Below are positions 44,645-51,203 of a stretch of DNA of 64,000 nucleotides, piece after piece (the stretch's first letter is position 1; every line of letters starts with the position of its first letter). The notes beneath the pieces are model-generated. The model was given only the letters and a program-made list of their open reading frames with translations, made no database searches and was not told the origin of the DNA. The translations under genes were made by a program, and so were the position numbers. The stretch is from contig NZ_CP103372.1 in the NCBI RefSeq assembly GCF_024802625.1, forward strand, positions 62,001 through 126,000, written 5' to 3'. The stretch comes from Massilia sp. H6. Its GTDB lineage: Bacteria; Pseudomonadota; Gammaproteobacteria; Burkholderiales; Burkholderiaceae_D.

Positions 44645-44897
44645 ATGAGAATCGCGTTGATACTGAAAACCGCCGCCGCTGTTGGTAGCCACCGCCGTCG
44701 CCCGAATCTTCGGCTGCTTTCTGCCCTACATTTGGCTGCGCAGGGGCAGCGTGATCTGGCTCCTGGCAGCGGCAGCGGCAGCGGCAGCGGCCAGCCTCGC
44801 GATTTTCGTCTTGTTACCTACGCTGTATCAAGCAGCTAGCAAGCGGGTGTACGCAGCCTAAGGCGGTGTATACGCTGCGACCGCCTTGGTGTGGCTA
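44645..44897 (+). pseudogene. ynfA: YnfA/UPF0060 family membrane protein remnant
   Basis: The reading starts MRIALIL, then shifts frame by +1 near 44665-44682 to [28 protein letters not shown]. It continues through an Ala-rich run to [13 protein letters not shown], meets a TAA at 44859-44861, and goes on GGVYAATALVWL. These are conserved UPF0060 blocks (GCYLPYLW, RVYAAYGGVYVATALAW). The stop replaces the Tyr of YAAYGG. Frameshift, nonsense codon and loss of the C-terminal segment mark it as dead. Confidence 0.78.
44765..44788 (+). repeat. (GGCAGC)4 hexanucleotide repeat in the ynfA remnant
   Basis: Four tandem GGCAGC units code for a poly-Ala run in the ynfA frame, where intact homologues have a varied hydrophobic segment. 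It looks like slippage expansion after loss of selection. Confidence 0.7.
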
Positions 44898-45061
44898 AGA
44901 TTCCGGGTTCAGCAGCGGCTGCGTTTCCCGCAAGCGATTCCAACATACCTGCCGACCCCGAAGAACGTACATTGCTTTTCGATACTTGGTCAGGGAAGCG
45001 GGTTAATATATGGTTCTGATACGGAATATAACGCAACTAACATTCCTCCGGACGGGCACCG

Positions 45062-45889
45062 ATGGCAAGTAAAGTCGAGCGCATTCTCATACTGGCAAAG
45101 ACCTACCCTTCACCTAGCGCGAAGCACACCGAGACGTCCTGCGTTGCGGGAATCAATGAAGATGGTCTGGCGCGGCGCTTATATCCTGTGCCATTCCGTA
45201 TGATTTCCACGCCTCAGCAATTCGAGAAGTGGCAGTGGATCACTGTCAGAATTGAGAAGCCGCCTGCTGATCACCGTCCGGAAAGTCATCGCGTTTTTGT
45301 CGACACAGTTCAAACCGGCGACAAAATCCTCACGACAAGGGGCTGGAATCTGCGTCGACCATGGTGGGAGAAGTTACCGATGTTCGACAGCTTTACAGCT
45401 ATGGAAGCGGCACGGGAGCGTCGACAAATCAGCTTGGCGATATTGCGCCCGAAGTCCTCGGTCAAGCTCGAAATCTCGCCGGTACAGCATCCGGAATGGA
45501 CGGAAGAAGAGATGGCCAAGTTAGTACAACAGCAAAGTCAGGGTAACCTGTTCTCCCCCGACGAACAACGCAAACAGCTCAAACTACTGGAAAAGCTTCC
45601 ATTCGATTTTTACTACCACTACATCTGCGATACACCTGAAGGCGAGCGCGTATGCAAGCATAAGATTGTCGACTGGAAGGTCGGCATGCTTTATCGCACG
45701 TGTCGGAAGGACTACGGGGCCGAGTGGGAAGTGAAGTTTCGCGCTAAGCTAGAAGGCGACTTCAGCAAGAAAGACCCGATGTTTATGATGGGAAACATCC
45801 ACCGGTTTCAGCACCAGTGGCTGATAATCAGCCTTCTGTATCCGCCAAAAGCAGACCGTTCTGCGGGCCTGCAGCCATCTCTGTTTTAA
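45062..45889 (+). CDS. probable dual OB-fold protein paired with DUF488
   Basis: The product is 275 residues, soluble. The N-terminal part (VERILILAKTYPSPSAKHTETSCVAGINEDG, then LYPVPFRM) and the beta-rich later part suggest two OB-like barrels. I recall a dual-OB domain family often encoded next to DUF488 proteins, predicted to sense or bind nucleic acid; I cannot confirm membership here. Its last 62 bases overlap the end of the DUF488 gene on the opposite strand. The genes around it (a dead ynfA and a copper ATPase) are unrelated. Function unproven; a defence or repair role is inference. Confidence 0.6.
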   Translation: MASKVERILILAKTYPSPSAKHTETSCVAGINEDGLARRLYPVPFRMISTPQQFEKWQWITVRIEKPPADHRPESHRVFVDTVQTGDKILTTRGWNLRRPWWEKLPMFDSFTAMEAARERRQISLAILRPKSSVKLEISPVQHPEWTEEEMAKLVQQQSQGNLFSPDEQRKQLKLLEKLPFDFYYHYICDTPEGERVCKHKIVDWKVGMLYRTCRKDYGAEWEVKFRAKLEGDFSKKDPMFMMGNIHRFQHQWLIISLLYPPKADRSAGLQPSLF

Positions 45890-46328
45890 CTGCAGCTTTG
45901 GAGAGATGCTGTACTTCGGCGCCACTGGCATGCCGCACGGCAGCCGCAACAAAGCTCCTATGGCACATGCGGTAATTCGCCTCGAAGCACAGTAGAGCAC
46001 AATGGGAAGCCTCTGCCATTTCGGATAGCTCGGCAATGATTTCCCCTTTGCCAGCAAGGTAGCGCTTGAAATCCTTCGTATAGCGCTGCCAATCTCCGTC
46101 TTGCCGATATTGGTCCCGTATTGGTTTCGGGCACCCAAGCTCGGAGATATGCCGATAGTGAAAGCCGTTAGCGCTAAGAATTTCGCGTAGTCCATTCTTT
46201 GAGAAGCCGCGCTTGCGCGAGAGCGGCAGTTCGCGGATGTCGACAACGGTCTCTACATTGCCTAGTCTGAGCAGTGCCAGGAAATTTTCGATGTCCAGGC
46301 CTTCGTAGCCGATAGTAAAAATGCTCAT
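45828..46328 (-). CDS. DUF488 family protein
   Basis: The product is 166 residues. Signature blocks are FTIGYEGLDIENFLALL, VVDIRELPLSRKRGFSKNGL and LLCFEANYRMCHRSFVAAAV, with the conserved Cys/Glu/Cys-His-Arg (CFE ... CHR). The family is of unknown function and is suspected to act on nucleic acids. It converges on the preceding gene with a 62-bp overlap of their 3' ends, so the two transcripts would be antisense there. The pair is likely a mobile two-gene unit. Confidence 0.85.
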   Translation of the reverse strand: MSIFTIGYEGLDIENFLALLRLGNVETVVDIRELPLSRKRGFSKNGLREILSANGFHYRHISELGCPKPIRDQYRQDGDWQRYTKDFKRYLAGKGEIIAELSEMAEASHCALLCFEANYRMCHRSFVAAAVRHASGAEVQHLSKAAVKTEMAAGPQNGLLLADTEG

Positions 46329-50156: not shown

Positions 50157-50419
50157 CCCATCTCGGACTGGCTCACAAACCAGCGTCCGCGAGAGCCGGG
50201 GCGGCCGCATGTGGCCAAGTGCCTGATTGCAGTGTTAGAAATTCAAATTTCCGCTAGCAGAAGCCCGAGGTTGTTCTCTGCACATTCGACCTATGCGAGT
50301 CAAGAACGTGAGGCTCCAGGTGTGTTATGTATGATGATCGATGAGGCACAGTAGGCCGCACTGCAATAGAAGATGTTGTTTATAAGCACTTTTCCACTGC
50401 TCCTAGGCTAGGGTTCACG

Positions 50420-50428
50420 TGGTATACT
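50420..50428 (+). promoter_or_regulatory. extended -10 promoter element
   Basis: TGGTATACT (TGn plus TATACT) lies about 35 bases before the ATG at 50463, which also has a strong AAGGAGG ribosome site. No good -35 is visible, as is usual for extended -10 promoters. Confidence 0.5.
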
Positions 50429-50462
50429 GAATGCTAGCGATACAAACTGCCAAGGAGGCACC

Positions 50463-50660
50463 ATGTTTGCATTCAGCCCGGTTTTCTCTCGTGAAGACGT
50501 GCGTCGCGTCGGCGAGAAGATGAACGGCAACTCGCCCCCCCAACTTTCTGATCGAACCAGAAAACTTCTTACTACTGTCCAATTCTCAAGCGGCGATCTT
50601 GTCAAAGCAACATCGGGCGCTGTAATTGAAACCTCGTTGGAACTACAGAAGGGCAAGTAA
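50463..50660 (+). CDS. hypothetical small protein
   Basis: The product is 65 residues, soluble, with no signal or membrane segment. AAGGAGG lies nine bases or less before the ATG, so translation is likely. It contains SREDVRRVGEKMNGNSPPQLSD and ends SLELQKGK. The next gene starts four bases after its stop. Together they look like a two-gene unit. Family unknown. Confidence 0.6.
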   Translation: MFAFSPVFSREDVRRVGEKMNGNSPPQLSDRTRKLLTTVQFSSGDLVKATSGAVIETSLELQKGK

Positions 50661-50663
50661 CAT

Positions 50664-51203
50664 TTGCAATATCTTTATCCACTTCTGGTTTCTGGTCCCA
50701 ACGATGTTCCGGGCGCGCTAGCTTACTTCGTATATAAGCGAAGCAAAGTGGAATGGCGTGACAAATTCGTCCTTGATCATGGTCGTCAACCCTCTCCGGA
50801 CGAGGAAAAGGAATTCGTCAGGATTTTGGCACTTCCAGAAAGTGTAGCAAGCTTCAAGCAGCGAGGGGAACAACTAGCTACGCTGTTTGCGAACAAGCTG
50901 CTTGAAGAAAAAATGGCAGTTCTTGCTGCCGAAGTTGTGCAGTCTGAACTAGCGACCAAATTTACTTCGCTTGAGTCCCAAGTCGCATCGTCCATGACTC
51001 GCATTGAGGCCCGGTTCGACGAAAAGAAAACACTTGGCGGCTGGTTACGCGATATCGGCACCTCATTGATTTCTGGCTTCGGCTTGATCATCATTCTTGG
51101 TGCCGCAGCGCTGGGGTATGCCATGCTCAGCAAGATGAACTCCTCACTGGAGGAGGCAGCCGGGGTCGGTACACCCAAGGACCAAGCAGCTGCAGCGAAA
51201 TAA
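50664..51203 (+). CDS. coiled-coil membrane protein, partner of the gene at 50463
   Basis: The product is 179 residues from a TTG start directly after the previous gene. The N-terminal part has YFVYKRSKVEWRDKFVLDHGRQPSPDEEKEF, a motif (YKR..K..W...F....GR.P...E) that I believe recurs in small bacterial conflict-related proteins. This is followed by a helical coiled-coil region (about 70-125), a membrane segment (about 136-157, LISGFGLIIILGAAALGYAML) and a short tail. It is probably anchored in the inner membrane. Function unknown. Confidence 0.6.
   Translation: MQYLYPLLVSGPNDVPGALAYFVYKRSKVEWRDKFVLDHGRQPSPDEEKEFVRILALPESVASFKQRGEQLATLFANKLLEEKMAVLAAEVVQSELATKFTSLESQVASSMTRIEARFDEKKTLGGWLRDIGTSLISGFGLIIILGAAALGYAMLSKMNSSLEEAAGVGTPKDQAAAAK

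Follow-up and report, generated by a model that had tools for sequence, protein, structure and literature searches.

Pairs of a DUF488 and a DuOB protein were reportedly described as conflict systems in the 2023 rhodanese-phosphatase survey of Burroughs and Aravind, with DNA-end or nucleic-acid processing as the predicted activity. We know of no clamp-binding motifs described in that survey. Among the defence models of PADLOC, PDC-M19 belongs to the PDC systems, which are unvalidated candidates (PMC12813430). Other described systems resemble such pairs in single features. Pol III alpha carries QADMF internally and QVELEF at its C-terminus, together with an OB domain (PMC11139829), SocB of the SocAB system targets the clamp through a clamp-binding motif, and the HIN-200 (AIM2/IFI16) and RPA proteins have a tandem-OB nucleic-acid-binding architecture.

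In a 64,000-bp stretch of Massilia sp. H6 DNA (the window), two adjacent genes encode proteins that match PDC-M19 over nearly their full DUF488 and OB lengths. With both PDC-M19A and PDC-M19B matched, the pair is a defence candidate that PADLOC already lists, and the locus itself adds a new member to this family of candidates. It differs from the catalogued form in that the M19A models (294 and 234 positions) have an additional N-terminal region, which the shorter window DUF488 protein lacks, and in that the genes are convergent and overlapping rather than co-directional. The locus shares the domain pair with the DUF488/DuOB conflict systems, and its DUF488 protein passes the DUF488-N3a profile PF22751 (34.4 bits, cut-off 27), but the DuOB profile PF22557 gave no match to the window OB protein at E values up to 1 and remained below the cut-off of 27 bits in distant homologues (Saccharolobus, 20.4 bits; Gordonia phage, 18.6 bits). 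The OB protein also echoes the arrangement in Pol III alpha, where internal and C-terminal clamp motifs accompany an OB domain, but it has no polymerase domains and no sequence homology is implied. Its likeness to HIN-200 and RPA is at the fold level only (7-10% identity), and SocB, a single non-OB toxin, is comparable by motif only. Many defence candidates in the catalogue have no mechanism, this pair among them; for this pair the putative clamp motifs give a concrete partner and place of action.

The gene pair and the predicted folds of its products

Both open reading frames of the convergent pair, with their 62-bp overlap, were found where the initial annotation had placed them (Table 1). 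Homologues of both genes are numerous. In comparisons with Rugamonas and Burkholderia relatives, synonymous change greatly exceeded non-synonymous change in both genes, indicating that they are maintained under purifying selection. Against the Rugamonas copy, the dN/dS ratio of the DUF488 gene was 0.11, and for the OB gene the same comparison yielded saturated dS and a pN of 0.19.

Table 1. Coordinates of features at the OB-DUF488 locus, numbered from the first base of the window
Feature	Position	Strand	Remarks
Dead ynfA	about 44688-44903	+	recognisable YnfA frame with in-frame stop
OB protein gene (DuOB-type, PDC-M19B)	45062..45889	+	275 aa, ATG start; PADLOC PDC-M19B E 2.4e-56
OB domain 1	45062..45487	+	residues 1 to about 142; predicted beta-barrel strands; VIA-align
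Inter-OB linker, low confidence	45488..45595	+	AlphaFold pLDDT 59-75
Linker clamp-binding motif QGNLF (putative)	45539..45553	+	residues 160-164, between the OB domains
OB-like domain 2	45596..45847	+	residues about 179-262, long helix 205-236; AlphaFold, HIN-200 alignment
DUF488 gene (PDC-M19A; DUF488-N3a)	45828..46328	-	166 aa, ATG; Pfam, PADLOC PDC-M19A, AlphaFold
Convergent overlap, both coding 3' ends	45828..45889	.	62 bp; mostly 44 bp in relatives
Ancestral DUF488 stop position	45846..45848	.	+ strand CTA in 58/58 relatives with 44-bp overlap; CAA in window
C-terminal clamp-binding motif QPSLF (putative)	45872..45886	+	residues 271-275, extreme C-terminus
Predicted active-site loop C114-x-E116-x5-C122-H123-R124	45957..45989	-	invariant in 26 diverse and 54 closer partners

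The commonest overlap among the relatives was exactly 44 bp (58 loci), and in every one of these the DUF488 stop lies antisense, as CTA, to Pro-Pro-Lys codons that are fixed in the OB gene. On the recurrence of this form with its fixed stop position, a chance origin of the convergent overlap was rejected. Since the window has CAA at this triplet instead of CTA, the ancestral DUF488 stop has been lost and the frame reads to the next stop, which gives the overlap of 62 bp. The arrangement seems to be ancestral and frozen in place, and not to be a regulatory device, although antisense regulation may still operate.

The DUF488 protein passed the Pfam profile PF04343 (94.3 bits, cut-off 22.2), and its PDC-M19A match (1.1e-34) spans positions 150-289 of the 294 in the profile, the N-terminal half of which is absent. 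The CFE/CHR motif noticed in the initial annotation is retained as C114, E116 and C122-H123-R124 and is invariant among the partners. The AlphaFold model (pLDDT 93) resembles tetrapyrrole-methylase/diphthine-synthase Rossmannoid domains with Z-scores of 8 to 9 and, to a lesser degree, DUF442 and PTP phosphatases. From this model the protein is predicted to be a Rossmann-like Cys-Glu...Cys-His-Arg enzyme. By analogy with its superfamily and with the predictions reported by Burroughs and Aravind (2023), the reaction would be end or phosphate processing.

No family was found in Pfam or NCBIfam for the 275-aa OB protein, and sequence searches of the PDB returned nothing significant for either protein. 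The PDC-M19B match covers residues 6-265 of the OB protein. Its AlphaFold model has a mean pLDDT of 87 and is least confident in the linker (blocks of 73, 59 and 75 over residues 151-180) and in the tail, and the top Foldseek matches were the tandem-OB proteins RPA, CST and HIN-200. In VIA-align comparisons, residues 1-105 of the model aligned to the OB folds of RPA, telomere end-binding protein and RecO at Z-scores of about 8, while HIN-200 tandem-OB structures spanned residues 3-267 at Z-scores of 7 to 8. The dual-OB fold suspected from the sequence was thus recovered by all three structural methods, with the second domain weaker. Z-scores near 8 are modest for OB folds, and in the model the first domain is secure and the second less so. 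We predict on this basis a tandem-OB, RPA/HIN-200-like nucleic-acid-binding protein, which presumably binds DNA.

Two short motifs in the OB protein

We searched the 109 intact bacterial and phage relatives of the OB protein for the pattern Q..[LM][FLI]. The linker motif was present in 101 of these proteins and the tail motif in 86, or in 98 if hexamer variants such as QGSFDF were included; 94 proteins contained both, hexamers counted. After clustering at 40% identity (n=10), the linker motif was retained in 9 clusters and the tail motif in 8. Only 8 of 777 control C-termini, taken from other proteins at the same loci, carried the tail motif. The density of the motif per 100 aa was 3.2 in the linker and 6.0 in the tail, as compared to 0.08 elsewhere in the same proteins, an excess of roughly 40- to 80-fold. 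The Q and the L/F of the motif are nearly fixed and position 3 favours S, D or T, whereas the residues flanking the tail motif and the length of the tail vary, a pattern that at the sequence level marks short linear motifs. The low pLDDT values of the linker and tail are as expected of such motifs.

Conservation of the tail motif could have been a by-product of antisense DUF488 coding. This explanation was rejected, since the motif is kept at 31 of 39 loci that are free of the overlap constraint (hexamers counted) and since the linker lies outside the overlap. The DUF488 protein was likewise discarded as a carrier of the motif, which occurred in 1 of 125 DUF488 tails.

Both motifs resemble the bacterial clamp consensus QL(S/D)LF, which is found in pentamer and hexamer forms in protein tails and loops (PMC11139829, PMC9690074, PMC4549789). 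A point against clamp docking is that QGNLF and QPSLF have Gly and Pro at position 2, residues that according to a review confer weaker binding to the E. coli clamp than Leu (PMC11139829). The QxxLF motif is short, and hydrophobic motifs of this size can have more than one ligand. Another hydrophobic pocket could be bound instead, for example on the DUF488 partner, which is always present, or on another OB protein molecule. We consider this quite improbable, because both motifs fit the clamp consensus, including S, D or T at position 3 and hexamers of the QxSFxF type, and because the archaeal members from Sulfolobales and Haloquadratum retain DUF488 yet have lost the QxxLF tail.

Archaea use PCNA as their clamp. 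The OB proteins of all three archaeal lineages lack the QxxLF tail motif, and in two of the three a PIP-like Q-x-x-L-x-x-[YF] is seen at one of the two motif sites: Sulfolobales proteins have a PIP-box-like QATL[DE]QYI in the linker, and the Natronococcus protein has QPGLDSF at its C-terminal end. The Haloquadratum protein has kept a linker QAKLF despite its archaeal host, which counts against the clamp reading. Drawn from three lineages, the archaeal pattern is a hint at most. Overall, the sequence patterns make it very probable that the two motifs dock the OB protein to the beta sliding clamp (DnaN).

In the literature searched, which included few subscription papers or preprints, we found no link between DuOB or DUF488 proteins and the clamp; the one paper returned for DUF488 and the clamp concerned ParB clamps, which are unrelated. 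The two clamp-binding motifs seem to be a new feature of the OB protein, for which we claim no priority.

Gene pairing, defence neighbours and a possible mode of action

For the survey of gene neighbourhoods, relatives were gathered by the OB protein alone, which yielded 80 genome loci and 32 viral contigs in addition to plasmids, phages and sampled genomes. A DUF488 gene was located within 150 bp of the OB gene in 107 of the 109 intact bacterial and phage members, bearing out the recurrent co-occurrence on which the initial annotation had staked its proposal. The two exceptions were a locus at a contig end with a partial DUF488 gene in place (L034) and one with DUF488 1.5 kb away (L074). Copies without DUF488 included a C-terminally disrupted OB copy and a pseudogene; DUF488 was also absent near the Natronococcus and pSOG2 copies, while the Sulfolobales and Haloquadratum members keep their partner. 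Pairwise distances of the OB and DUF488 proteins were correlated (r 0.81; 0 of 2000 permutations). The L034 copy is 57% identical and comes from a metagenome-assembled genome labelled Desulfovibrionaceae, reflecting either a recent transfer or a binning error.

The OB family was identified in 1 of 100 sampled relatives and in none from the same genus, and in 11 of 369 genomes of the class and 10 of 398 of the phylum, the genome itself being counted. Such patchy occurrence is typical of horizontally moving accessory genes. Carriers include plasmids of many mobility types, temperate phages and chromosomal-scale contigs, with no constant plasmid neighbour. A search for further archaeal relatives in viral contigs found none.

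Gene orientation is mostly convergent in Proteobacteria; elsewhere the genes are co-directional, usually with DUF488 upstream and fused to a ParB-HTH (archaea), an XRE-type HTH (Streptomyces) or another N-terminal domain. Since fusions of this kind are common in regulators, they would fit a model of growth arrest in which the DUF488 protein is a regulator or antitoxin and the OB protein a toxin-like clamp competitor, released or activated on infection. With both pockets of the dimeric clamp taken up by its two motifs, the OB protein could outcompete Pol III; SocB of Caulobacter is a precedent (PMC9690074). We hold this model to be unlikely: the predicted DUF488 catalytic set is fully conserved in all partners, which would be unusual for a pure antitoxin, toxin-antitoxin pairs normally form one operon rather than a convergent pair, and two well-folded OB domains do not resemble a short toxin.

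An archaeal ParB-DUF488-HTH fusion is known to bind CTP (PMC12704722), and on two archaeal plasmids (L021:3936-4985, L135:7028-8110) a ParB-HTH-DUF488 gene, often annotated merely as a ParB partition protein, lies beside the OB gene. In one co-directional clade (L003-L008, L126-L134, L142) DUF488 has an N-terminal fusion domain of about 150 aa, the equivalent of the first half of the PDC-M19A profile. By eye, this N-terminal region was suspected to be Panacea/SocA, an identity that was dropped as no Pfam match was obtained.

The neighbours of the pair are rich in defence genes. In all, 188 PADLOC models were matched among 113 neighbour genes and 5 among 112 random chromosomal genes, tallies that count models rather than genes and use a chromosomal control unmatched for mobile elements. 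The neighbours include Gabija, SIR2 and HerA, AbiE, a DRT-type helicase, CapP and type III methylases. Directly after DUF488, the nearest relative, Rugamonas rivuli, has a gene for a UvrD-type helicase and another large gene (L102:7409-10992), the probable gajB and gajA of a Gabija system. In Gordonia temperate phages (L022, Eviarto and relatives) the convergent pair adjoins the immunity repressor near the integrase, as a prophage-encoded defence would. Together with the PDC-M19 match, this neighbourhood agrees with the defence association put forward at the outset. As a candidate, the pair is rather more likely to have a defence role than to lack one.

The same carriers raise the alternative that the pair serves its element in replication or repair, guarding or processing the element's own incoming single-stranded DNA or ends through the host clamp, with no part in defence. 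The spread over plasmids and temperate phages and the SSB/RPA-like OB protein would suit such a helper, and some carriers lie among plasmid replication and recombination genes, near SSB, RecT-type or RadC genes, which fits a housekeeping role. The excess of defence genes over the chromosomal control and the copies on chromosomal-scale contigs speak against it, and we consider the helper role improbable, to about the same degree as the growth-arrest model.

Returning to a defence role at the clamp, the OB protein would hook onto DnaN via its linker and C-terminal motifs. Docking would place it at primer-template junctions and on nascent DNA of an incoming phage or plasmid whose replication relies on the host clamp, and it would there deliver its partner DUF488 enzyme to the replicating invader DNA. 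The enzyme may then act on DNA ends or nucleotide phosphates, modifying or processing them, and invader replication would be halted. As to the earlier idea of a nucleic-acid surveillance unit, the motifs point to action at replicating DNA rather than to generic surveillance. We give even chances to the proposal that this is a mobile two-gene PDC-M19 defence candidate acting at replicating DNA through a clamp-docked OB protein and a DUF488 enzyme, in which we infer the interaction of the partners and the anti-phage effect. The full mechanism, with a clamp-docked tandem-OB protein and DUF488 acting at invader DNA, has even or slightly lower chances. More tentatively still, the DuOB-DUF488 family at large may be a clamp-docked immune system (DnaN; PCNA in archaea) that polices the replication fork with a tandem-OB sensor and an end-processing DUF488 enzyme. 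If so, the replication clamp of the host would serve this defence family as the address at which invading DNA is met, and DUF488 enzymes as a class would gain their first defined substrate context.

Plasmid setting and mobility

The window is located on contig C2 of a three-contig genome, in which dnaN lies at the start of C1. C2 contains a ParA gene together with F-type transfer genes whose counterparts on a Massilia plasmid are about 80% identical, and is therefore most likely a conjugative plasmid. As had been noted, the pair sits between a dead ynfA and a copper operon: both the ynfA remnant, in which 4.5 copies of a GGCAGC repeat (44765-44791) encode an alanine run, and copper/RND operons were found. 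The GC content drops to 0.52-0.53 at the pair, compared to 0.60-0.64 in the flanks. Of the signs of a mobile cassette, the pair shows this GC dip and its location on a likely conjugative plasmid. A discrete transposon was not found: the segment 44100-46650 contained no inverted repeats and direct repeats at chance level only, no recombinase ORF was present between 44164 and 46603, and no integrase or transposase adjoined the pair.

A link to metal resistance or ynfA was considered and rejected, since the 139 related loci contained two ynfA matches and one CusA match; with these genes so rare near related pairs, the copper setting is local. An intact or recognisable ynfA lies near the pair on an Arthrobacter plasmid (L138:5319-5657) and on an alphaproteobacterial contig (L099), possibly by coincidence. 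A second dip in GC content, to 0.49, occurs at window positions 50250-50999, in the stretch that separates the copper operon from the transfer genes.
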